Assembly: GCA_900468625.1 (NCBI GenBank)
Contig: UBUL01000027.1
Span: forward strand, 1-64,000
DNA length: 64,000 nucleotides
DNA from: Hyphomicrobiales bacterium
GTDB taxonomy: Bacteria > Pseudomonadota > Alphaproteobacteria > Rhizobiales > Rhizobiaceae
Direction: 5' to 3'
Shown: positions 45,877 through 57,304 of the stretch, piece by piece
Position numbering within the stretch: the first letter of the stretch is position 1
Layout: each line of letters begins with the position of its first letter
Program-made: the position numbers and the translations under genes
The notes under the pieces: generated by a model
The model's input: the letters and a program-made list of their open reading frames with translations, nothing else
Database searches by the model: none
What the model was told of the DNA's origin: nothing

Positions 45877-46610
45877 TTAGCGTACGCGATCTCGATGTCG
45901 TCTTTACCTCCGGCAAGACAAAGAACCATGTCGTCAGAGGGGTAAGCTTCGATGTCGGCAGGGGAGAAACGCTCGGCATTGTCGGCGAGTCTGGATGCGG
46001 CAAGTCGACCGTGCTGCGCTGCTTGGCCGGCATGGAAAAAGGGTGGTCCGGCGATATAGGACTCGCCGGCAAGGTCGTCGGCAAGACCCGCACGCGAGAT
46101 GAGCTGCGGCATGCCCAGATGGTGTTTCAGGATCCCTACGGCTCGCTGCATCCGCGCCACCGCATCGGCACGGCGCTCGCCGAACCGCTGCGTGCCATGG
46201 GACATGACGATGGCTGGGCAAAGGTCGAAAAGGCATTGCGCCAGGTCGGCCTGCCGCCGGCCTTCGCCAACCGCTACCCGCATGAGCTTTCCGGCGGACA
46301 GCGCCAGCGCGTCGCGATCGCCCGGGCCTTGATCCTCTCGCCGCCGATCCTGCTGCTCGACGAGCCGACCTCGGCGCTCGACGTGTCGATCCAGGCCGAA
46401 ATCCTCAACCTCCTGGCAGATCAGCGCGACGAGCGCTCCCTGACCTATGTCCTCGTCAGCCATGATCTGGCCGTTATCGCCCATATGTGCGATCGGGTGC
46501 TGATCATGAAGGGCGGCACCTTCGTCGACGAGTTGAGCAAGGCGGATTTGCAGGCAGGCACGACGCATGACGCCTATACGCGCGAGCTGTTCGAGGCGAG
46601 CTTCCTTTGA
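45873..46610 (+). CDS. ABC transporter ATP-binding protein, DppF class
   Basis: Second ATPase, 245 residues. Walker A is GESGCGKST, the signature is LSGGQRQRVAIARAL, Walker B is ILLLDEPTSALDVSIQ, and the switch is VLVSHDLAV. The MVFQDPYGSLHPRHRIG Q-loop region is typical of DppF. The protein stops soon after HDAYTREL, without the long extension found in many DppF proteins. It completes a binding-protein, two-permease, two-ATPase importer expressed as one overlapping operon. Confidence 0.9.
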   Translation: MISVRDLDVVFTSGKTKNHVVRGVSFDVGRGETLGIVGESGCGKSTVLRCLAGMEKGWSGDIGLAGKVVGKTRTRDELRHAQMVFQDPYGSLHPRHRIGTALAEPLRAMGHDDGWAKVEKALRQVGLPPAFANRYPHELSGGQRQRVAIARALILSPPILLLDEPTSALDVSIQAEILNLLADQRDERSLTYVLVSHDLAVIAHMCDRVLIMKGGTFVDELSKADLQAGTTHDAYTRELFEASFL

Positions 46611-46764
46611 GGTGCACGTAGGCGGCAGCGGTGGTTCGGATCACGCGCAAAATCACTGCACGCTCTACATGAGATCATTTGAAATCGCTTATCGAAAGTC
46701 GCGCTGAAAATCATCCCAGCCGGCGACGCGTTCCGCTGATCCTGGCAACGAAGCCGCCTTTGCC

Positions 46765-46819
46765 AGACTAAAGTCCAATTCATGAGAGGACCTTAGTCCG
46801 ACGGCACATTCTTTAGTCC
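46765..46819 (+). promoter_or_regulatory. three dyad elements upstream of the glycan operon
   Basis: AGACTAAAGTCC (46765-46776), GGACCTTAGTCC (46788-46799) and CTTTAGTCC (46811-46819) are related dyads built on AGTCC half-sites, spaced about 20-23 bp apart, i.e. two helical turns. The same three elements occur in the same order before the convergent operon at 56.5 kb. This is a candidate multi-site activator or repressor region; the regulator is not identified. Confidence 0.55.
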
Positions 46820-46957
46820 TATTGCCATGGATTGCCCTGACCTTTGCGCCAGTTGTTTCCTGCGATGGAAGCGGCGCGACATCCGACCGCTATCGCAATG
46901 CATGCGGAGAAGGTCGATGAGCATGAACGGCGTCCCCGAAAGCGGCATCCCCGTCCC
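46812..46957 (+). repeat. leader module copy A (inverted with 56329-56474)
   Basis: This 146-bp segment aligns without gaps to the reverse complement of 56329-56474, with about 20 differences by hand count (roughly 86% identity). It covers the third dyad, the leader region, the Shine-Dalgarno GGAGAAGG and the first codons of the small leader gene. Confidence 0.8.
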
Positions 46958-47042
46958 TTCACCTGCCGATGCTTCCGACGGCGACGGGATCATCGGGTTC
47001 GTCGGCCTCGTCGCCAATGGTGGCAATGACTGTGGGAGCTGA
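46917..47042 (+). CDS. small leader peptide of the glycan operon
   Basis: Forty-one codons (start ATG 46917 or 46923) behind GGAGAAGG. The peptide begins MSMNGVPESGIPVPSPADASDG and closely matches the start of the peptide encoded before the convergent operon (MNMNGVLESGIPAPATAAVSDG). Its stop at 47040 overlaps the start of the glycosyltransferase gene by 17 bp, which suggests translational coupling. It is hydrophilic at first and then Gly/Val/Ile-rich (IIGFVGLVANGG), with no signal peptide. Conservation of the frame at both sites supports real translation; function is unknown. Confidence 0.5.
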   Translation: MSMNGVPESGIPVPSPADASDGDGIIGFVGLVANGGNDCGS

Positions 47043-48027
47043 GCGAAGCGCCACGGTTGCGGTAGTCGTACCGATGTTCAACGCCGAACGAACAATTGGC
47101 GCGACCTTGGCCAGCATCTGCCGCCAGACACATCAAGCGCTTGACATCGTCATTGTCGATGATGGTTCGTCGGATCGGTCATTGTCGATCGTGGACGAAT
47201 ACGCAATGCGGGACCCACGAATCCGCATCGTTCGACAGGCCAATAGCGGTGTCGCCGCAGCTCGTAACAATGGCGCGGCTGCGACCGATGCCGAGTTTCT
47301 CGCATTTATCGATGCCGACGATTTATGGGCTCCGTCAAAGATCGCCCTTCAATGGCAAGCTCTGGAAGCGGGCGGCCCATCGGTTGGATTGGCCTATTGC
47401 TGGTACGCCCTCATCGACGAGCACAGCCGCGTTTTTTCCCTCCATAACCGGCCGAGTGCCGAGGGACATGTGCTTCAGCGCATGTGCAGAAACAATTTCG
47501 TCGGTAACGGCAGCTCGATGCTCATGCGCCGTTCCGCCTTCGAAAAGGCCGGGCAATTCGACCCGTCGCTCAGGGCACGCAATGCCCAGGGCTGCGAGGA
47601 TCTTCTGATCTGCCTCAGAATTGCGGAGAGCTACGAGTTTCGCGTTATACAGCAACACCTGGTCGGCTATCGCATGACGAACACGAACATGTCGAGCGAC
47701 GTCAAGCGGATGCTCGCTTCGTGCGAAATCGTCCTTGCCGAATACCGCGAAAAATATCCTCAGTATGGCAGCGACCTCGACGCTCATCTGGTCGACATGC
47801 TCCACTGGCTTGTCGTAAGGGCGTTTGTCAGCGGACGATTTTTCGACGGCTGGGAGCTGTTGAAGCGATTTCTGGCATTGGAGCCGCGCCTGGCAATTTC
47901 GAACCTGCCGAACATGCTCGACGTATATTGCCGCGCCAGACTGGTTCCCGACTGGCTCAAGGCTCGGCTGAGGGGCTTGCAAAGAAACGCCGAGTTGCGG
48001 CCGCTCTATACGGAGACGATCCAATGA
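47026..48027 (+). CDS. glycosyltransferase family 2
   Basis: GT-A fold transferase of 333 residues from ATG 47026 (ATG 47017 is possible). Motifs are VVVPMFNAERTIGATLASICRQTHQALDIVIVDDGSSDRS for the nucleotide-sugar site, SGVAAARNNGAAATDAEFLAFIDADDLW for the DxD metal site, and NFVGNGSSMLMRRSAFEKAGQFD, GCEDLLICLRIAE for the acceptor side. It would add a sugar from a nucleotide donor to a growing glycan at the cytoplasmic membrane face. First large gene of a six-gene, tightly overlapping plus-strand operon. Confidence 0.9.
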   Translation: MTVGAERSATVAVVVPMFNAERTIGATLASICRQTHQALDIVIVDDGSSDRSLSIVDEYAMRDPRIRIVRQANSGVAAARNNGAAATDAEFLAFIDADDLWAPSKIALQWQALEAGGPSVGLAYCWYALIDEHSRVFSLHNRPSAEGHVLQRMCRNNFVGNGSSMLMRRSAFEKAGQFDPSLRARNAQGCEDLLICLRIAESYEFRVIQQHLVGYRMTNTNMSSDVKRMLASCEIVLAEYREKYPQYGSDLDAHLVDMLHWLVVRAFVSGRFFDGWELLKRFLALEPRLAISNLPNMLDVYCRARLVPDWLKARLRGLQRNAELRPLYTETIQ

Positions 48028-49844
48028 GGTCGGGCAATTCCCTCCTCATGCGGCTGCAACGGCTCTTCCGGCTGGCGGAGGCGCCTGCCTGGGCAGGACC
48101 AACCATCGTCGGGCTCGGCCTTGCCGCCGCGGTTCTCGAGGGTGCAGGTCTCTTTCTCTTCATTCCCCTCATTCAAAGCCTCGGCGCCGCAACGGCGCAG
48201 CAGGGAGAATGGCAGCGAGTTTTCGACCGCCTTCTGGCGGCTGTTCCGCAAAGCCATTTGACGGCATTCCTGGTGGGCGTGCTGTGCGTCAGCATCCTCC
48301 TCAAGAATGCCGTCCATCTCATCAATACCTGGGTGACCCGGTATATCGACGGTCTCGTTGCACATCGGCTGAGGGCAAGGGTATTCGACCAGACGATCAG
48401 CTCGTGCATCGACTACCGGGTGGACAACAAGCGCTCGGATATCATTACGACGATCGCCAACAACACCTGGAAGGTCAGTCAGGCCTTAAGCCTCGCCTAC
48501 CGCTTGATGATCTGTTTCTGCACCTTCGTCGTCTTCATGCTGCTGATGCTCTTGATTTCCGTTCGGCTGACCTTTTTCTCGATGACGCTCCTGCTTATCG
48601 GGGCCATGGCCATTCGTCTGGCCACGCGGCGTGCGGACGAGACCGGCAAGGCCGTCGTCGAGGAAAACAAGCAGTTCGGCTTGAGGATGTGGGAGAGCAT
48701 CAACGCGCTGCAATTGATCCGCGCTTTCGCCCAGGAGGACTATGAGCGCAATCGCTTCCGCAAGATTTCCGACAATGTGCGGCGACGCCTTCTGAAGCTC
48801 GATATGCTGTGGGCGACACCAGGGCCTGTCTCGGAAATCTCGATTACGATCCTGATCGGCGCGCTCGTCCTGGTCGCTCAATCGGTAGGCCTGGGCATTG
48901 CGGTGCTGGCCGCGTTTCTCTCGCTGCTGTATCGTCTTCAAGGCCCGACGCGGGAACTGCTGCAGTCGAAGATCGCGCTCGACGGGCTCGCCGGCAGCAT
49001 AGACGATGTCGATGACTTCCTCCGCACGACGGCGAGGCCCTTTCTCTCAGACGGGCGCGTGCAGGCCCCCGCCTTCGGACAAGCCGTCGAATTCCGCAAT
49101 GTCTCTTTCCGCTATGCGCCCGGACAGCCGCTCGCACTGGAGGATGTCTCCTTCAGCATTCCCGCCGGCAAGACCACAGCGATCGTCGGCGAGTCGGGGG
49201 CGGGAAAATCCACGGTGATGGCTCTGCTCTTCCGCTTCATGGATCCGACTTCCGGTGCGATCGTCGCAGACGGAACGCCTCTACCGGAATTCGATCTTCG
49301 CAGTTGGCGCAAGCGCCTGTCGCTGATGTCGCAGGAGGTCCACCTCTTCAATGACGCAATTTCGGCGAACATCGCCTATGGCGATCTGAAGGCCGGACCA
49401 GCCGACATCCGCAAGGCTGCCGAAATCGCCAAGGCGGACGATTTCATCCGGCTACTCCCGGATGGCTACGAGACACGGATCGGCGATCAGGGAATGCGCC
49501 TGTCGGGCGGGCAAAGGCAGCGCGTAGCGCTCGCCCGAACGATCCTTCGAAATCCCGATATTCTGCTTCTGGATGAGGCGACGAACGCGCTCGACGCCGA
49601 AACCGAACAGGCGTTTCAGCTTGCGCTCGACGAGTACTCGCACAACCGCACCGTCGTCGTGATCGCTCACCGGCTCTCGACCGTTCTGGCGGCCGATCAG
49701 ATCATCGTCATGACGAAGGGTCGCGTGGTCGAGGCCGGCTCGCCGGACGAGCTCTTCGAACGGCAGGGACATTTTTCCAGGCTCCACGAATTTCAGCACG
49801 GCCGCAGCAGGCGGGAGTTGGGTGATGAGTTACAAGCTTATTGA
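48024..49844 (+). CDS. ABC exporter, fused membrane and ATPase domains
   Basis: Type IV half-transporter of 606 residues, starting at ATG 48024 in an ATGA overlap. Six membrane helices precede the ATPase. Walker A GESGAGKST is at about 390, the signature LSGGQRQRVALARTIL at about 493, and Walker B ILLLDEATNALDAETE at about 513. The D- and H-loop regions are intact (VIAHRLSTV). MsbA and PglK flippases share this layout. In a glycosyltransferase operon lacking Wzx, it is the obvious candidate for flipping the lipid-linked glycan across the inner membrane. Confidence 0.9.
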   Translation: MRSGNSLLMRLQRLFRLAEAPAWAGPTIVGLGLAAAVLEGAGLFLFIPLIQSLGAATAQQGEWQRVFDRLLAAVPQSHLTAFLVGVLCVSILLKNAVHLINTWVTRYIDGLVAHRLRARVFDQTISSCIDYRVDNKRSDIITTIANNTWKVSQALSLAYRLMICFCTFVVFMLLMLLISVRLTFFSMTLLLIGAMAIRLATRRADETGKAVVEENKQFGLRMWESINALQLIRAFAQEDYERNRFRKISDNVRRRLLKLDMLWATPGPVSEISITILIGALVLVAQSVGLGIAVLAAFLSLLYRLQGPTRELLQSKIALDGLAGSIDDVDDFLRTTARPFLSDGRVQAPAFGQAVEFRNVSFRYAPGQPLALEDVSFSIPAGKTTAIVGESGAGKSTVMALLFRFMDPTSGAIVADGTPLPEFDLRSWRKRLSLMSQEVHLFNDAISANIAYGDLKAGPADIRKAAEIAKADDFIRLLPDGYETRIGDQGMRLSGGQRQRVALARTILRNPDILLLDEATNALDAETEQAFQLALDEYSHNRTVVVIAHRLSTVLAADQIIVMTKGRVVEAGSPDELFERQGHFSRLHEFQHGRSRRELGDELQAY

Positions 49845-51048
49845 GATCGAGTTGTCGCAGCCTCTGGCACCGATCGAACTCTCGGCCGAACAGACCGGTA
49901 TCGGCCTGGTGGCGCGGTGGCAAGGCCGGCTGCTCGCATTCGAAATGATCGAGCGGCCCGCGGGATCGACACTGACGGTCGGAAATCTGAAAGCTCTTGC
50001 CGGCGAGAGGTTTGCCCAGCGCATCCTCGTTGCAAAGCTGGAGGAGGAGCTGACGGCGCAGTCACCAGCGCAGGATATGCCGCTGCCGAACCTCAGCATC
50101 GCAATCTGCACCAAGGATCGCGCGCAGCGCCTTTGTCGCTTGCTGCGCTCGCTCGATCAGCTTCGCGGTGAATCTCCCTTCCAGTTCACCGAGATCATCG
50201 TAGTCGATAATGCCTCGGTGGACACGGCCACGCGCGAAGCCGTCGAGAGCTTCCGCGATATACGCTACGTTTTCGAACCGAAGGCGGGGCTGGATTTCGC
50301 CCGAAATGCCGCCCTTCATGCGGCCTGGGGCGATATTGTCGCCTATCTGGACGATGATGTCGTGGTGGATCGCAATTGGCTTGCAGGCCTTGCCAAGGCG
50401 TGCCGCGACAACCCCGGCGTCGGCGGCTTCACCGGCCTCGTGCTGCCGTTTCGTCTCGACACGCAAGCGCAGGTCTTTTTCGAACGGCGCGGAGGGTTTG
50501 GCCGCGGCTTTGCGCGCAGGGAGTTTCACAAGGCGCGCTTTGACAACCCGCTCCATCCCGTCGGTGCCGGCATCCTCGGAGCTGGCTGCAACATGGCCTT
50601 CGACCGTAAATTGCTGATCGAGCTTGGCGGCTTCGATGAAGCGCTCGATACGGGAGCGCCACTGCCCGGAGGCGGCGATCTCGATATATTCTACCGCGTT
50701 CTGCGCTCTGGACGCCCGATCATCTATGAGCCGGAATATGCCGTTTATCACGAGCATCGCGAAACCATGCCGCAGCTCAGGCGGCAATACTGGACCTGGG
50801 GCCTCGGCATGATGGCATTTCTCGTCAAAAGCTATCGCACCGATGATGAAATGCGGGCACGCCATCGCGCCATGGTCCGTTGGTGGTTCTTCGACCAGTT
50901 GAAGGCGCTTGCCCGCGCTGCTCGCCGGTTGCGTGGCCATGAGCTGCGCTTCGGTATCGCGGAGCTGTGGGGCGGAATCTATGGCCTTGCCGGCGAATAT
51001 GATCGCTCACGCGCCCGTATCCGGTCGATCCAGGAGCGCAATTCATGA
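49825..51048 (+). CDS. glycosyltransferase family 2 with N-terminal extension
   Basis: 407 residues from ATG 49825 (GGAG at 8 bp). About 88 residues of unfamiliar sequence precede the GT2 core (LSIAICTKDRAQRLCRLLRSLDQ, IIVVDNASVD, GLDFARNAALHAAWGDIVAYLDDDVVVD, FTGLVLPFRLDTQAQVFFERRGGFGRGF, GAGCNMAFDRKLL, GGDLDIFYRVL). The YLDDDVVVD stretch holds the metal-binding Asp residues. It resembles the next gene in both extension and core, so the two appear to come from an old duplication. Overlaps the exporter gene by 20 bp. Confidence 0.88.
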   Translation: MSYKLIEIELSQPLAPIELSAEQTGIGLVARWQGRLLAFEMIERPAGSTLTVGNLKALAGERFAQRILVAKLEEELTAQSPAQDMPLPNLSIAICTKDRAQRLCRLLRSLDQLRGESPFQFTEIIVVDNASVDTATREAVESFRDIRYVFEPKAGLDFARNAALHAAWGDIVAYLDDDVVVDRNWLAGLAKACRDNPGVGGFTGLVLPFRLDTQAQVFFERRGGFGRGFARREFHKARFDNPLHPVGAGILGAGCNMAFDRKLLIELGGFDEALDTGAPLPGGGDLDIFYRVLRSGRPIIYEPEYAVYHEHRETMPQLRRQYWTWGLGMMAFLVKSYRTDDEMRARHRAMVRWWFFDQLKALARAARRLRGHELRFGIAELWGGIYGLAGEYDRSRARIRSIQERNS

Positions 51049-52355
51049 GGGCAGAACGTCTTGAGGTGAGGCATGTCGATCTGGCGGCCGCCGATATCGG
51101 TAGCGATCGCGAGCCCGCATTGTCGGTCTTCTGGTGGAAAGACCTGCCGCTGGGAGCACGGGCATCCCTCAAGGACGAGCTACCTTACGGGGCCTCTCAA
51201 TTGCGCCAGCTTGCCGCCGAATATGCGGCTGCGCAACTTCAAGCACGCAGCATCGGGCTCGGCGCACCGTTGCGTGCCACCTATGAAGGATGGCCAAAGC
51301 CCGCGCTCTCGCTTGAGGCGGCGCTTGATGCACAAAATCCGGTAGAGACGCTCGACGCGATCGCAAAGCCATCCTGCGCCTCGGCGCAGGACATGTCCGT
51401 GGTCATCTGCACCCGCGATCGCGGTCCGGCTCTGAGCAAATGCCTGGCCAGCCTTGCAGCGCAGCGCAGCCCTCCGGGCGAGATCGTCGTCGTCGACAAT
51501 TCTCAGGATGGGAATGCGAGGGACATCTGCGGGCAATTCCCCGATTTTCGCTATGCCCACGAACCTCGTTCCGGCCTAAGCCGAGCCCGAAACACCGGCG
51601 TTCAAACAAGCCGGTTTGAGATCGTCGCCTTCACAGACGACGACGTCGAAGCCCATCCTGGCTGGACCGCAGAAATCGCAGGCGTCTTTGCCGAGCGGGA
51701 TGTGGAGGCGTTTACGGGTCTGGTGTTGCCGGCGCGTCTCGATACGGCGGCACAATGCTTCTTTCAGTTCACGATGGGCGGTTTCGGCTCGACCTTCGTG
51801 CCGCTTAGCTTCGACAGACGCTTCTTCGAGGAGACGCGGCCCAGCGGAGCGCATGTCTGGAAGATCGGTGCGGGTGCCAACATGGCTTTTCGGCGATCGG
51901 TATTCGAGCGGGTCGGCCTTTTCGACGAACGCCTCGGCGCGGGTGCGGCGGGATGCTCCGAAGATTCAGAGCTTTGGTACCGGCTGCTGGCGGCCGGTGG
52001 CGCGTGCGTCTACGAGCCCCGCGCCGTCGTCTTCCATCACCACCGCAGCGACTGGGCGGGTCTCAAGCGGCAGATCAGAGCCTACATGAAGGGCCACGTC
52101 GCAGCTCTGGTGGCGCAGTACGACAATTTCGGCGATCGCGGAAACATCGTGCGCATCGGCAGGCAGCTGCCGGTCTATTTCGCCAAGACCTTCGTCAAGG
52201 CGCTTTTCGAAGGGCCGCCGGGCAGGCTCGGGATTTTGGCGGCCGAAGTACAGGGATGGCTCGCCGGCCTGCAGTTTCTCCTGCGCTTCGGCTGGAGAAT
52301 GCGGCGTACCCCGATGGGTGGTGTAACCGTGACTGCCGACAAGGAAACAGCGTGA
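51045..52355 (+). CDS. glycosyltransferase family 2 with N-terminal extension
   Basis: 436 residues, starting in an ATGA overlap. A leader region of about 110 residues (including LSVFWWKDLPLGARASLKDELPYGASQLRQLAAEY) precedes MSVVICTRDRGPALSKCLASLAAQ, IVVVDNSQDG, GLSRARNTGVQTSRFEIVAFTDDDVEAHPGW, FTGLVLPARLDTAAQCFFQFTMGGFGSTF and GAGANMAFRRSVF. The metal motif is TDDDVEAHP. Paired with its upstream paralogue, it probably adds a different sugar or linkage. The C-terminal basic helices may sit on the membrane. Confidence 0.88.
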   Translation: MRAERLEVRHVDLAAADIGSDREPALSVFWWKDLPLGARASLKDELPYGASQLRQLAAEYAAAQLQARSIGLGAPLRATYEGWPKPALSLEAALDAQNPVETLDAIAKPSCASAQDMSVVICTRDRGPALSKCLASLAAQRSPPGEIVVVDNSQDGNARDICGQFPDFRYAHEPRSGLSRARNTGVQTSRFEIVAFTDDDVEAHPGWTAEIAGVFAERDVEAFTGLVLPARLDTAAQCFFQFTMGGFGSTFVPLSFDRRFFEETRPSGAHVWKIGAGANMAFRRSVFERVGLFDERLGAGAAGCSEDSELWYRLLAAGGACVYEPRAVVFHHHRSDWAGLKRQIRAYMKGHVAALVAQYDNFGDRGNIVRIGRQLPVYFAKTFVKALFEGPPGRLGILAAEVQGWLAGLQFLLRFGWRMRRTPMGGVTVTADKETA

Positions 52356-53095
52356 TGATCAAGAAGGCACCACTTCGCCGGTTTCTATCCGGGAATCCTT
52401 ATCCGAACGGGCTGACGGACGGTTTGTTCTACCGCGAAAAGATGCGCGCCATCCATCGCGTGGCACCGGCGGAAACCGGCGGCACCGGACGGGTGCTGGA
52501 AATCGGCGGCGGTCGCAGCGGTCTTGCCAGCATTCTCTATCCGCAAGCCGAAATCGTCACGCTCGATATCGACCCCGAATTGGCCGACCACCAGCCCTCC
52601 TGGGCGAACTCGACCTTCATTTGCGGCGACGCCTGTTCGCTGCCGATGGACGACGACAGTTTCGATATCGTCACGATGTTCGACGTGCTTGAGCATATCG
52701 AGGAAGACCGCCGCGCCGCGCAGGAGGCGCTGCGGGTAGTAAGGCCGGGCGGATATGTCCTGATTTCCACTCCCGAGATCAACTGGCATTACCCATATTT
52801 CAGCGTCATGAAACGCCACTGTCCGCATGAAAGCGAATTGATGCGCGCGTGGGGCCATGTCAGGCGAGGATACCGGGATCCGGAACTTGCAGCCCTTTTC
52901 GACAGGCAACCGGAAAAGCGCGCGACATTCATCAACGCCGCCACAGCTTTTTTCCATGATGTTTCATTTTCCCGCTTTGGCCGCCGGCGCCGCAAGGTGC
53001 TTTACGCGCTGGCGGCACCCGTGACCTTCCTCGGCTACCTGATGCACCGACCGTCCACGCGCGGCACCGAGACCGCCTTTGCCTGGCGCAAATGA
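52355..53095 (+). CDS. SAM-dependent methyltransferase, class I
   Basis: 246 residues from ATG 52355 (a GTG at 52352 is an alternative; AAGGA lies upstream). Motif I is VLEIGGGRSGLAS, motif II EIVTLDIDPELAD, then CGDACSLPMDDDSFDIVTMFDVLEHIEEDRRAAQEALRVVRPGGYVLISTPE, the classic Methyltransf_11 pattern. It sits between glycosyltransferases with 4-bp-type overlaps, so O-methylation of a sugar or capping of the glycan chain is likely. Confidence 0.87.
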   Translation: MIKKAPLRRFLSGNPYPNGLTDGLFYREKMRAIHRVAPAETGGTGRVLEIGGGRSGLASILYPQAEIVTLDIDPELADHQPSWANSTFICGDACSLPMDDDSFDIVTMFDVLEHIEEDRRAAQEALRVVRPGGYVLISTPEINWHYPYFSVMKRHCPHESELMRAWGHVRRGYRDPELAALFDRQPEKRATFINAATAFFHDVSFSRFGRRRRKVLYALAAPVTFLGYLMHRPSTRGTETAFAWRK

Positions 53096-54321
53096 GGGAG
53101 CATCGGATACCAAAGGTGATCGCCCTTTTCCCATGGGGAGACGTGATCGAAGAATTTCTCGAGCCGATCGGGCTCGAACTTCAGGATTTCGTCGAGCAGA
53201 TGACGGGAGGCTGGCTGTTCGGCTATGCGGCGGCGCTGGTCTCGGTTGGTCACAAGCCGATCATCGTCTGTGCATCCGAGCGGGTGAGCAGGATTGAGTG
53301 CTACGAACATTCGGGCACAGGCACACCGATCTGGGTCGCACCGGCAAGGCGATCCCGGCAGGGTCATTCCGCCGCCGCCTATAGCCTGCGGCGCTGGTCT
53401 CGAACGCCGCTTCCCGCCTTCCGCGAGATACTTTCTCGCTCCGGATGCGATCTGCTTCTTGCTCAGGAGTACGAATATACGCGTTTCGATGCGCTGGCAT
53501 GGCTGGCGTGCAGCCTAAACCTGCCCCTCTTTGCCACCTTTCAGGGCGGAGATCGCACACTGTCCTGGATCGAGGCCGCCGCAAGACAGCTCTCGCTGCG
53601 CGCTTGCCACGGTCTGATCGTTGCCTCCGCCGCAGAGCGCAGCCGTCTCGCTAAGGCTTATCCGCGCATTGCTCCCAATGTGGCGAATATTCCCAATCCG
53701 CTGGATAGCCGTGAATGGCAGGCGATGGATCGCAGCGAAGCGCGAGCAAATCTCGGCCTGCCGCAGGATTGCTTCATCGCTCTCAATCACGGCCGCATCG
53801 ATATCCGCCGCAAGGGGCTTGATGTCCTTCTGAAAGCCTGGACGCGCTTCTCGGGCGGTCCTTCCACCCAGCTGGTAATCATCGGCTCGGGCCAGGACAA
53901 TGACGCTTTCGCAAGGCTGCTTCGTGAAAGCGGCCTGGCGAATGTGCAATGGTTAACCGGCTACATGACGGAGCGGCCCCTGATCCGGCGCTGGCTGTCG
54001 GCGGCCGACGTCCATGTCACAGCGTCGCGCATCGAAGGCATGCCGGTTGCGCCATTGGAAGCCATGGCCTGCGGCCTCCCCGTCATCGCTTCGGATGCAC
54101 AGGGTCTGCCTGATATTCTCGTCGACGGCGAGGCCTCGGGCGGCCTGATGGTGAGACGGGAACAGCCCGAAGACATTGTGCAGGCCCTGGCAAGATTGAG
54201 AGGCGACGAAACTCTTCGGGCACAGCTGGGCGCGGCTGCCCGACGGCGGGTGGCGGAAAATTTCTCGATCGAAGCGGTCGGCGCCGCTCTCGACGAGTTT
54301 CTGACAACGGCAAGCAGCTAA
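53092..54321 (+). CDS. glycosyltransferase family 4
   Basis: GT-B fold retaining-type transferase of 409 residues. The N-terminal domain contains HSGTGTPIWVAPARR and DLLLAQEYEYTRFDALAWLA. The C-terminal donor-binding domain has NHGRIDIRRKGLDVLLKAWTRF, LVIIGSGQDNDAFARLLRESGL and VHVTASRIEGMPVAPLEAMACGLPVIASDAQGLPDILVDGEASGGLM with the conserved Glu pair of GT4. It closes the plus operon, 3 bp before the convergent galE-like gene stop. Confidence 0.9.
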   Translation: MREHRIPKVIALFPWGDVIEEFLEPIGLELQDFVEQMTGGWLFGYAAALVSVGHKPIIVCASERVSRIECYEHSGTGTPIWVAPARRSRQGHSAAAYSLRRWSRTPLPAFREILSRSGCDLLLAQEYEYTRFDALAWLACSLNLPLFATFQGGDRTLSWIEAAARQLSLRACHGLIVASAAERSRLAKAYPRIAPNVANIPNPLDSREWQAMDRSEARANLGLPQDCFIALNHGRIDIRRKGLDVLLKAWTRFSGGPSTQLVIIGSGQDNDAFARLLRESGLANVQWLTGYMTERPLIRRWLSAADVHVTASRIEGMPVAPLEAMACGLPVIASDAQGLPDILVDGEASGGLMVRREQPEDIVQALARLRGDETLRAQLGAAARRRVAENFSIEAVGAALDEFLTTASS

Positions 54322-54324
54322 GGA

Positions 54325-55299
54325 TCACATCCGGCTGCTATGCCAGGCAAGTGCCGTCTCGATGATCCGGTCGATGCTGGAACGGCGAGGCACCCATCCA
54401 AGCTCACGCCTGGCCTTATCGGCCGCGGCGACGAGGGCGGGTGGATCGCCGGGTCTGCGGGAACCAAAGGCAACGGCAAGGCTTTGTCCGGAAATGCGGC
54501 CGACGGCATCGGCCAATTCCCTAACGGTCGTTCCGTTGCCGGTGCCGAGGTTGTAGACATGTACCCCCTCGTCCCGCAACAGTTTTTCGCCGCCAAGAAC
54601 ATGCGCCTCGGCGAGATCGCTGACATGGATGTAGTCGCGGACGGCGGTGCCGTCGCGCGTGTCGAAGTCGGTGCCATTGATGGTGAAGGTTCGGCCAGAC
54701 CTGATCGCCGCCTCTATAGCGAGCGGAACGACATGAGTCTCCGGCTCGTGCCGCTCGCCGATCTCGCCATCGGGGTCGCAGCCGGCCGCATTGAAATACC
54801 GCAGCATCACCGCATTGAGACCGCGGGCACGCGAGAAATCCTCCACCATCCGCTCGATCATGAATTTCGACCACCCATAGGGATTGATCGGCCATTGCGG
54901 ATGGGTCTCGTCGATCGGGGTACGGGTCGGAATGCCGTAGGATGCGCAAGTGCTTGAAAAAATCAGCCTATTGACGCCTGCTTTCAGCATTTCCTCGATG
55001 AGAACCAGCGTCCCGAAACTATTGTTCCGATAATAGAGCTCTGGAAACTCGACGGATTCGCCGACATAGGCGTAGGCCGCGAAATGGGCGACCACATCCG
55101 GGCGGTACTGGCGCAGCGCCGCCGCAACCGTCCCGGCGTCGGCAATGTCGCCCTCGACCAGCGGTCCCCATTTGACCGCATCGCGCCAACCACGGGACAG
55201 ATTGTCATAGGTGACGACCGACCACCCGGCCTCGGCGAAGGCCTTGCAGCAATGCGATCCGATATAGCCGGCTCCGCCGGTGACAAGGACCGTTCTCAT
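54325..55299 (-). CDS. galE: UDP-sugar 4-epimerase (GalE-like; possibly UDP-xylose 4-epimerase)
   Basis: Extended SDR epimerase of 324 residues with bound [14 protein letters not shown] (6-16), [23 protein letters not shown] with Thr117, and YGWSK with Tyr141 and Lys145 form the active site; [26 protein letters not shown] is GalE-typical. GalE interconverts UDP-glucose and UDP-galactose. Because the gene overlaps (4 bp) a UDP-xylose synthase gene, it may instead make UDP-L-arabinose from UDP-xylose, as the uxs/uxe pair described in Sinorhizobium meliloti does. Sequence inspection cannot separate these. Confidence 0.85.
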
Positions 55300-56267
55300 T
55301 CGGCAGCGATCGCGTGCGGGACGGTCGACAGCAGATCCTCGAAATATGCGATCGTTTCGCCAAGCCCGGCCCTCAGTTGAACCTTCGGCTTCCAGCCGAG
55401 TTCGCGCGATGCAACCTCGATATCCGGCTGCCGCTGCCGAGGGTCATCGGCGGGCAGGGGCAGGTATTTTATCGTCGAGCTGCTTCCGGTCAGCTCTATC
55501 GCGAGGTTGGCAAGCTCCAGCATCGTGAACTCCGCCGGATTGCCGAGATTGATCGGGCCGGTCACCTCATCCTTTGTCCCCATCAGCCGCACCAGACCAT
55601 CGATGAGGTCGTCGACATAGCAGAACGATCGTGTCTGCTGGCCGCTGCCGTAAACCGTTATCGGCTTGTTCTGCAGCGCCTGTACGATGAAGTTGGAAAC
55701 GACGCGGCCGTCATCGGGGCGCATTCGCGGACCATAGGTGTTGAAAATGCGCGCCACCTTGATGCGCAGCCGGTGCTGACGCCAGTAATCGAAGAACAGG
55801 GTCTCGGCGCAGCGCTTGCCTTCGTCGTAACAGGAGCGCAGTCCTATCGGATTCACCCGGCCCCAATAATCCTCCTGCTGGGGATGAATTTCGGGATCGC
55901 CATAGACTTCTGATGTCGAGGCCTGAAGGACCTTGGCACCGACCCGCTTGGCGAGGCCGAGCATGTTGATAGCGCCATGAACGCTGGTCTTGGTCGTCTG
56001 CACCGGATCGAACTGATAGTGAACCGGGCTCGCCGGACAGGCGAGATTATAGATCTCGTCGACCTCCACATAGAGGGGAAAGGTGATGTCGTGGCGAACG
56101 ATTTCGAAGGACTTGTTGTCAAGCAGGTGGAAGATATTGCTTTTCCGTCCTGTAAAGAAATTGTCAGCGCAGATGACCTCGTGTCCTTCCAGCAAAAGCC
56201 GTTCGCACAGGAATGAGCCGAGAAAGCCCGCGCCGCCGGTAACCAGGATTCGCTTCGTCTGCTGCAT
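55296..56267 (-). CDS. uxs: UDP-glucuronate decarboxylase (UDP-xylose synthase)
   Basis: Extended SDR enzyme of 323 residues. It oxidises UDP-glucuronate at C4, loses CO2 and gives UDP-xylose. [10 protein letters not shown] (9-18), [25 protein letters not shown] (the UXS-specific cleft), [12 protein letters not shown] with Thr118 and Glu120, and SCYDEGKR with Tyr147 and Lys151 are all present, as is [22 protein letters not shown]. First full gene of the minus operon. Its ATG is 6 bp after the stop of a small leader peptide. It supplies a pentose donor to the convergent glycosyltransferases. Confidence 0.93.
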
Positions 56268-56273
56268 GGCCGG

Positions 56274-56369
56274 TTATCTCGCAGCCGACAGCGTGACATT
56301 GCTGCCATCGGAAACTGCGGCAGTAGCCGGGGCCGGGATGCCGCTTTCAAGGACGCCGTTCATATTCAT
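56274..56369 (-). CDS. small leader peptide upstream of uxs
   Basis: Thirty-one codons from ATG 56369 behind GGAGAAGG. The peptide starts MNMNGVLESGIPAPATAAV and is clearly related to the leader peptide of the convergent operon in its first 20 or so residues, then diverges (NVTLSAAR). The stop lies 6 bp before the uxs ATG. It has no signal peptide. Conservation of both the start site and the encoded residues at two places argues for translation; function unknown. Confidence 0.5.
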   Translation of the reverse strand: MNMNGVLESGIPAPATAAVSDGSNVTLSAAR

Positions 56370-56474
56370 CGACCTTCTCCGCATGCATTGCGATGGCGAT
56401 CGGGCATTCCGCCGCTTCCATCGCCGGAAACAACTGGTGCAAAGGCCGAGGCAATCCATGGCATTAGGACCAAA
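56329..56474 (-). repeat. leader module copy B (inverted with 46812-46957)
   Basis: Reverse-complement partner of the module before the plus-strand glycosyltransferase operon. The two copies point at each other and enclose the whole 9.4-kb glycan cluster. Confidence 0.8.
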
Positions 56475-56521
56475 GAAGGCATCTTCAGACCGAGGTCTGA
56501 TCATGGGCCAGACTTTAGTCT
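56467..56521 (-). promoter_or_regulatory. three dyad elements upstream of the uxs operon
   Basis: On the minus strand: AGACTAAAGTCT (56521-56510, a perfect 12-bp palindrome), a dyad TCAGACC-N2-GGTCTGA at 56500-56485, and TTTGGTCC (56474-56467). Order and spacing match the set before the plus operon. The first two sites are better palindromes here than in the other copy. Confidence 0.55.
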
Positions 56522-56686
56522 GATGGCGGTCGAAAGCATGAGGGCCACTTCATGGAGAGTTCAGGCGACGCGCCGAAACACTGCGCGATGATATCCCTTC
56601 CACGGAATCTGCTCGACATCCGGATGCGGATCTTTTCGATCTGCAGCATCAGCATGCCGACGGGAGCCAGCCAAACAACCGGCGGA

Positions 56687-57304
56687 TCAGGTCAGCAATC
56701 CGTTGAGGACGAGATCGATATGCGCTTCCAAATAGGTGGCTTTATCCAGGCTCCGCCGCTCGTCGAAAAGAAGCTTGAAGAACAGGAAGGCTATGGCCGG
56801 CGCCACGATTGCGTCGGAAAACGCAGCCGGCGCCCGCCGGAACTCGCCATTTCTCATGCCTTCCTCGATAAGGGACTGCATCTGTCGCTCGAGAGGATCG
56901 ATAAATACGTCGTGATGCCTATCGACGACCTGAGGGAAGCGCGAACCTTCGGCGATGACGAACCTCATCAGTTCCCGCAATTTGCGATCGTTGACTATGA
57001 GATCGTAGATCAGCTCGATATTTCCCTGAAGCCGCTCCGTGGCGGTTCCCTTCAGCTCATTCGCGCTTGCCAGCAGATTTTCGAGCGGCCCCGAAATGTG
57101 TCGGATCATCGCTTCGAAAAGCTGCTCCTTGGTCTCGAAGTAAACATAGATCGTACCCTTGGTTACTCCGATTCTGGCGGCAATATCCTCGACCCGCGTT
57201 GCGACGTAGCCGCGCTCGACGAACTCTTCGAACGCCGCATCCAGAATCTGCACGGGGCGGCGAGCCTTTTGCTCCGCACGCGTCAGCTTTTTCAGATCGG
57301 TCAT
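56687..57304 (-). CDS. TetR-family repressor of the RND efflux operon
   Basis: Regulator of 205 residues. The helix-turn-helix is ILDAAFEEFVERGYVATRVEDIAARIGVTKGTIYVYFETKEQLFEAMI, a standard TetR N terminus. The C-terminal domain is helical (LRELMRFVIAEGSRFPQVVDRHHDVFIDPLERQMQSLI) and resembles the AcrR/TetR_C type. It is divergent from the efflux operon with two dyads in the intergenic region, one over the operon's -35. Classic drug-responsive repression is expected; the inducer is unknown. Confidence 0.9.
   Translation of the reverse strand: MTDLKKLTRAEQKARRPVQILDAAFEEFVERGYVATRVEDIAARIGVTKGTIYVYFETKEQLFEAMIRHISGPLENLLASANELKGTATERLQGNIELIYDLIVNDRKLRELMRFVIAEGSRFPQVVDRHHDVFIDPLERQMQSLIEEGMRNGEFRRAPAAFSDAIVAPAIAFLFFKLLFDERRSLDKATYLEAHIDLVLNGLLT

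Follow-up and report, generated by a model that had tools for sequence, protein, structure and literature searches.

In a 64,000-nucleotide stretch of a Rhizobiaceae genome (contig UBUL01000027.1; hereafter the window), a glycan gene cluster of two convergent operons, A and B, is enclosed by two inverted copies of one DNA segment, which raises the question of whether these repeats are the ends of a mobile element or serve the expression of the genes between them. We regard as probable a model in which the two repeats are copies of one expression module, each heading one operon, and the products of the two operons together synthesize a surface glycan with pentoses (xylose, perhaps arabinose) and bring it out of the cell. 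Each module carries putative operator dyads, a promoter-like core and a leader open reading frame (ORF). The leader has a strong Shine-Dalgarno sequence and its stop codon falls at the first-gene start, an arrangement that would couple translation of the first gene to that of the leader. Most likely, the dyads are bound by a NarL-family response regulator (RR) that works with a HisKA_3 kinase, the pair being encoded elsewhere in the genome; this RR would switch on, rather than repress, both operons, genes for small secreted proteins and, in two species, a gene for an EAL-domain protein, and gene conversion would keep the two copies alike.

The repeat itself is well defined. The initial annotation had described 46,812-46,957 and 56,329-56,474 as inverted copies with about 20 differences, and the ungapped alignment of one segment with the reverse complement of the other has exactly 20 differences over 146 positions. 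The full arms extend further, to 219 bp with 44 differences (80% identity), and their local alignment score of 222, compared to a maximum of 36 over 1000 dinucleotide shuffles, lies well above the shuffled sequence from which the repeat had to be told apart. A search of the same genome with one arm returned the other arm with an E-value of 9.3e-51; as the next match has an E-value of only 0.25, no third copy was found in this genome.

Absence of the module from other genomes had been set beforehand as a ground for rejecting it; instead, 18 of the 148 genomes of the genus carry both copies, always as an inverted pair 9.64-9.66 kb apart. The 22-bp core pattern of the module, with at most one mismatch, matches in 19 of the 148. 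The additional genome, G138, has a single core match with one mismatch, lacks the cluster together with the ortholog described next, and was set aside as a chance match. The family 2 glycosyltransferase (GT2) gene at 51045 has an ortholog at 75-100% identity in exactly the 18 genomes with the module pair (E-value limit 1e-60). At the same limit, 48 other genomes of the genus hold a relative of this GT2 at no more than 47% identity (40-47%; rows G153 and below). An exact-pattern scan of a contig collection retrieved 23 stretches, 22 from Rhizobium-group records (R. freirei, R. hainanense, R. multihospitium, R. miluonense, R. lusitanum, R. rhizogenes, R. calliandrae, R. mayense and R. dioscoreae, in addition to two Rhizobium sp. 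and one entry labelled Rhizobiales bacterium), the remaining one being from Zobellia; by our own estimate, a few chance matches are expected in such a scan. A search of 72,556 plasmid records with the 219-bp arm matched seven, all from Rhizobium and each at two places.

The anatomy of the module was read from an alignment of the 36 copies of the 18 genomes. The best-conserved parts are two tandem dyads of the form RGACnnAnGTCY (typically AGACTAAAGTCC and GGACCTAGGTCC), separated by 11 bp, and the core TCTTTGGTCCTAATGCCATGGA. Past the core, a leader of about 85 bp runs up to a GGAG-type ribosome site and an ATG. Within the window, the tandem element matches only at the two modules.

Elsewhere in the genus the operator is more widespread than the module. 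With at most three mismatches, the tandem dyad is present in 48 of the 148 genomes, 17 with the block enclosed by the modules and 31 further ones, compared to none for the reversed-pattern control; a looser pattern finds the element in all 18 block genomes, with 73 matches over both strands against six for the reversed pattern. The resulting list has 75 rows, with 28 in modules and 42 distinct other sites, and all 42 were examined in surroundings of up to 8.5 kb, roughly 4 kb to either side unless a contig end intervened. Twenty-four of them lie near genes for a NarL-type RR and a HisKA_3 kinase at least 78% identical to the pair of genome G066, 12 lie near a gene for a small tyrosine-rich secreted protein and two precede an EAL-domain gene. 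In 96 background loci, which are shorter than the site loci (2.3-5.2 kb each) and come from a few flank families, none of these four proteins matches at an E-value of 1e-20; at 1e-5, the limit used for the sites, eight of the 96 show a partial RR match of 50-95 residues, and none matches the kinase, the EAL protein or the tyrosine-rich protein.

The dyads of the tyrosine-rich group are those of loci L244-L247, L252, L253, L258, L263, L341, L346, L352 and L355, and the one such protein that was searched has no Pfam match. Where L302, L304 and L305 have a dyad near a gene of this kind, a short protein or reading frame that starts with MPFRK follows downstream. The two sites before EAL-domain genes, L248 (G083:C2:1301985) and L249 (G036:C78:63384), carry a diverged third copy of the module. 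Over 72 aligned columns these copies have 55 and 56 identities, with scores of 53 and 58 compared to at most 29 in 200 shuffles; their leaders, similar by eye, have 69 and 70 codons, and their stops meet the EAL start, assigned from the longest ORF, in TAATG and ATGA. They are the only further copies seen, and recurrence of the module upstream of other surface-polysaccharide operons, which the initial annotation had named as a check, was not found.

The RR contains a receiver and a GerE domain, and its best NCBIfam match is NarL, below the cut-off of that family. One strong homolog is present in each of the 18 block genomes, at 57-61% identity, and in the four loci with listed frames it is encoded beside the kinase and a gene for a glycine/asparagine-rich protein. 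Around these 18 RR loci, the tandem with the N11 spacer has three mismatches in nine loci, four in three and at least five in six (median 3.5), compared to at least five, with a mode of eight, in 76 unrelated loci; the latter number excludes L114 and L144 from 78 background loci, because both matched well through the modules of the window that they contain. The operator dyad is therefore shared with the neighborhood of the cognate RR and kinase genes, as expected of a regulon. Three points weigh against this assignment: the six of 18 loci of the two-component system (TCS) with at least five mismatches, the degenerate second site (GGACCGAAGCCC) of the TCS-linked dyads in the tropici group, and the four of the 42 non-module sites without any expected gene nearby, among which L359 is cut by a contig end. 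The NarL-type TCS would still most likely control both operons. Common control, which the initial annotation had derived from the shared upstream DNA, is upheld at the level of sequence by the conservation of the pair, its homogenization and the occurrence of the tandem operator in 31 further genomes, mostly beside the TCS.

It is unlikely that another regulator, either a different LuxR-type protein or the TetR protein whose gene adjoins copy B in the window, binds the dyads and that the NarL-type locus is only a co-target. This explanation draws on the adjacency of the TetR gene and on the deduction of RR binding from gene neighborhood alone; on the other side stand the 24 non-module sites near the TCS, the presence of its RR in every block genome and, for TetR, the position of that flank of the window, which lies away from the block where it is found in other block genomes.

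The leader frame downstream of the core is open in 35 of the 36 copies, and its ATG is at the aligned place in 34. The frame of the G018 B copy is shifted and a nearby ATG serves, whereas the G146 A copy has ATA at the aligned place and a GTG two codons on. In the B copies the leaders have 29-31 codons, and the stop begins 8 or 9 nt before the ATG of the first gene in all 18 genomes; in the A copies they have 36-41 codons, and the stop begins 1 or 14 nt past the first-gene start in 16 of the 18 (34 of the 36 copies were placed by script, with the first genes of A assumed to start at the conserved ATG or TTG, and two A copies remained unplaced). Pairing with the 16S end is predicted to be stronger for the leader (mean -6.4 kcal/mol in A and -6.6 in B) than for the first gene (-4.6, a mean that includes the two misplaced A rows, and -4.2). 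A leader stop thus lies at or next to the next start codon in a conserved manner, which suggests that translation of the first gene is coupled to the leader. Weighing against a selected leader peptide, the amino acids show no clear purifying selection, with ratios of nonsynonymous to synonymous polymorphism (pN/pS) of 0.83, 0.92 and 0.51 in frames 0, +1 and +2. Since the amino acids are not clearly constrained while the frame and the stop-start arrangement are kept, it looks as if the geometry, not the peptide, is under selection.

The same region might instead act as an RNA attenuator or riboswitch, or code for a functional small protein, given that the leader of about 85 bp and the N-terminal codons are alike in both operons and that the consensus fold of the A set alone is better than column shuffles (z -2.9). 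We consider this quite improbable: the fold is no better than shuffles for all 36 copies (z -1.1) or for the B copies (z -1.2), with little covariation, a search of 46500-56800 against Rfam found no family at the gathering score, and the pN/pS of 0.83 argues against a functional protein. One sub-threshold Rfam match lies outside the modules, at 48043-48134 on the minus strand.

The two copies of a genome evolve in concert. Distances were compared for 16 of the 18 genomes, which fall into two main clades of 11 and five, leaving out G146 and G035. Within the module, the distance between the A and B copies of one genome averages 0.10-0.18, depending on part and clade, compared to 0.21-0.31 for A-A or B-B pairs between the clades. 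Beyond about codon 20 the order is reversed, with 0.55-0.61 for the A and B copies of one genome compared to 0.33 (A-A) and 0.25 (B-B) between the clades. Forcing all A copies into one clade lowers the log-likelihood by 166 and is rejected (p-AU 1.4e-6). Moreover, 17 private states are common to the A and B copies of one genome, compared to 3.1 when the pairings are permuted (none of 20000 permutations reached 17); when a 5-column deletion of G004 is counted once, 13 remain, compared to 2.8 (17 of 20000 as high). These states stem from six of the 18 genomes and include the 5-bp deletion in both G004 copies and five private bases in both G134 copies. In G108, a 68-bp stretch of the operator and core is identical between A and B. 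Paralogs of one genome therefore share derived states that their orthologs lack.

Several observations run counter to a continuous homogenization. In the larger clade the A-A and B-B distances are 0.11-0.18, no farther than those between the copies of one genome; only four of the 18 A copies and five of the 18 B copies have the partner from the same genome as their nearest neighbor; and the best tree has 10 changes of the A/B label compared to 12.3 after shuffling (62 of 500 as low), a slight, non-significant clustering. On these grounds the exchange between the copies is real but intermittent. Gene conversion would be the simplest process behind it, and repeated re-duplication at the same two places is a possible substitute. 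It is very improbable that purifying selection on shared regulatory sites keeps the copies alike with no part played by gene conversion: most invariant columns do lie in the dyads and the core, and the distances within the larger clade agree with it, but selection does not account for the rejection of an all-A clade, for the genome-specific changes in both copies of G004 and G134, or for 13 to 17 shared private states where about three are expected.

Intermittent exchange between the copies leaves the question of whether the repeats also move the block, since the initial annotation had suggested that they could mediate its inversion or transfer. Inversion finds no support: on the B side, ten genomes have a flank in common with other genomes (in groups of seven and three), and because it never lies on the A side of the block, no block in the opposite orientation was seen among these ten. 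Across 17 genomes the genes that flank the B side form nine settings; in G024 a contig end interrupts the flank. The two flanks of the window lie 107-152 kb apart in G020, G021, G108, G109 and G125, the five relatives with both on one contig. The D flank of the G108 group occurs elsewhere without the block, beside a neighbor that varies across 12 such loci, and neither these 12 loci with the flank of another block nor the other loci compared yielded a clean empty site; the proposed transfer is likewise not supported. The 20 kb of DNA adjoining the block on its left, examined as a control, are similarly scattered over contigs in 15 relatives, in pieces of up to 9.2 kb among the matches listed. 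Neither a recombinase, nor empty sites, nor flipped alleles, as would mark a composite transposon or invertible element, were found in the loci compared, and ordinary shuffling of accessory replicons can explain the varied settings.

It has little chance of being right, then, that the modules are the ends of an element that flips or carries the 9.7-kb block. In its favor, similarity to more distant relatives breaks off almost precisely where the modules end (46764 and 56523) and the flanking genes differ among most genomes; the coincidence of these edges with the modules also follows from the modules being the ends of a functional unit. Against it, in addition to the absence of flipped blocks and clean empty sites, the separation of the flanks in five relatives and the scattered control region, similarity passes the A-side edge by 54-122 bp in eight of 17 relatives, and no recombinase is present among the eight block genes searched.

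Some observations on the surroundings of the block are added here. The nearest candidate for an empty site, a G004 locus (L212, G004:C27) with the D flank near DNA like the U flank of G072 (L096), was given no weight, because it rests on a parDE-like pair read by eye. At the G004 locus, which lacks the block, these two small genes of a putative toxin-antitoxin pair are close to the D flank, whereas in G072 they are close to the block. In G024, G035 and G134 (L041, L104 and L105), the contig breaks off within a few hundred bases of the outer side of a module, possibly at a repeat that adjoins the block. The window segment 26700-46640 consists of operon-sized pieces scattered among close relatives, the longest listed being 9.2 kb and ending with a dpp-type transporter.

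The gene content of the block agrees with the initial description of two convergent operons that jointly hold glycosyltransferases, an exporter, a methyltransferase and nucleotide-sugar enzymes (see the table). Operon A, on the plus strand from 47026 to 54321, encodes a GT2, a HepA/MsbA-like ATP-binding cassette (ABC) exporter, two further GT2 proteins, a methyltransferase and a family 4 glycosyltransferase. Operon B, on the minus strand from 56267 to 54325, encodes a member of the UDP-glucuronate decarboxylase family, whose solved relatives are named UDP-glucuronic acid decarboxylase 1 (best E-value 2.5e-127), followed by a GalE-type epimerase. These enzymes point to a glycan with xylose, perhaps arabinose or galactose. 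Four glycosyltransferases would build it, the methyltransferase would modify it, and the ABC protein would carry it out of the cell.

Features of the glycan cluster and of the modules that enclose it, in window positions
Feature	Position	Strand	Basis
Module copy A (promoter and leader ORF), left repeat arm	46764..46982	+	alignment, own-genome search
Tandem dyad operator A, AGACTAAAGTCC-N11-GGACCTTAGTCC	46765..46799	+	pattern search
Conserved core A, TCTTTAGTCCTATTGCCATGGA; possible third half-site and -10 region (putative promoter role)	46810..46831	+	alignment
Leader ORF A, 41 codons, overlapping the first-gene start	46917..47042	+	ORF, alignment
Family 2 glycosyltransferase, operon A gene 1	47026..48027	+	start re-read at ATG 47026; listed ORF from 46969
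ABC exporter with fused ATPase, HepA/MsbA-like	48024..49844	+	start re-read at 48024; family search used 48069-49844
Family 2 glycosyltransferase, second GT2 of operon A	49822..51048	+	family search
Family 2 glycosyltransferase, third GT2 of operon A	51045..52355	+	family search; ortholog in exactly the 18 genomes with the module pair
S-adenosylmethionine (SAM) methyltransferase, start approximate	52352..53095	+	family search
Family 4 glycosyltransferase, final gene of operon A	53092..54321	+	family search
GalE-type UDP-sugar 4-epimerase, final gene of operon B	54325..55299	-	NCBIfam galE above cut-off
UDP-glucuronate decarboxylase (UDP-xylose synthase) family, operon B gene 1	55296..56267	-	sequence match
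Leader ORF B, 31 codons, stop codon starting 9 nt upstream of gene 1	56274..56369	-	ORF, alignment
Module copy B, right repeat arm	56304..56522	-	alignment, own-genome search
Conserved core B, TCTTTGGTCCTAATGCCATGGA	56455..56476	-	alignment
Tandem dyad operator B, AGACTAAAGTCT-N11-AGACCTCGGTCT	56487..56521	-	pattern search

Parallels to parts of this arrangement are known. Concerted evolution is familiar from repeated bacterial loci, for example rRNA operons and tuf genes, which resemble the present case in that copies within a genome are closer than orthologs of another clade; what is homogenized here differs in that it is no gene but a regulatory module some 220 bp long. Sites of NarL are arranged as 7-2-7, and the dyads likewise have a 2-bp centre (GGACC-TA-GGTCC). 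Like the NarL/FixJ regulons, the predicted system combines an RR with receiver and GerE domains and a HisKA_3 kinase, but the site sequence differs and the predicted targets are surface and secreted products. In Sinorhizobium meliloti, we take uxs1 and uxe to encode enzymes of the decarboxylase and epimerase type, respectively. The nearest described system that we found is the operon for the arabinose-containing polysaccharide (APS) of this species, uxs1-uxe-apsS-apsH1-apsE-apsH2, which is driven by CuxR in response to cyclic di-GMP (c-di-GMP) (PMC7902896). As in operon B, a decarboxylase-type gene is followed by an epimerase-type gene and serves a dedicated surface glycan; a link to c-di-GMP, made by CuxR there, is present here only loosely, as an EAL gene with the same module in two genomes (PMC7902896). 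Compared to the APS operon, the cluster has two convergent operons, twin modules, a HepA/MsbA-like exporter and a methyltransferase, and the predicted regulator is a NarL-type TCS, whereas CuxR is of the AraC type (PMC7902896). In the synthetic bicistronic design, a short leader cistron is coupled to a target gene (PMC5995908). A standard promoter and a short translated leader precede different genes in both cases, but the present module is natural, duplicated and homogenized within the genome, and its coupling is predicted (PMC5995908). By titles and abstract openings, none of the publications retrieved from an open-licence literature library names the module, the operator or the TCS, and an earlier description is possible.

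Co-regulated operons with duplicated and homogenized promoter-leader modules are a variant of a known theme. More tentatively than the model itself, we suggest that the promoter and its coupled leader form a portable unit, a standard on-switch of a NarL-type TCS, which may have been copied to new genes, here the two glycan operons and the EAL gene of two species, and that the two glycan copies undergo gene conversion between inverted repeats; by being kept alike, the copies would prevent the supply enzymes and the polymer machinery from drifting apart in expression. The pair offers a clear bacterial case of regulatory DNA, rather than a gene, evolving in concert, as well as a natural parallel to bicistronic expression designs. 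Altogether, a testable regulon can be named, in which one TCS and a 35-bp element would link the synthesis and export of the glycan to small secreted proteins and, in two species, to an EAL-domain gene, and which concerns an uncharacterized surface glycan of the Rhizobium tropici-rhizogenes group.

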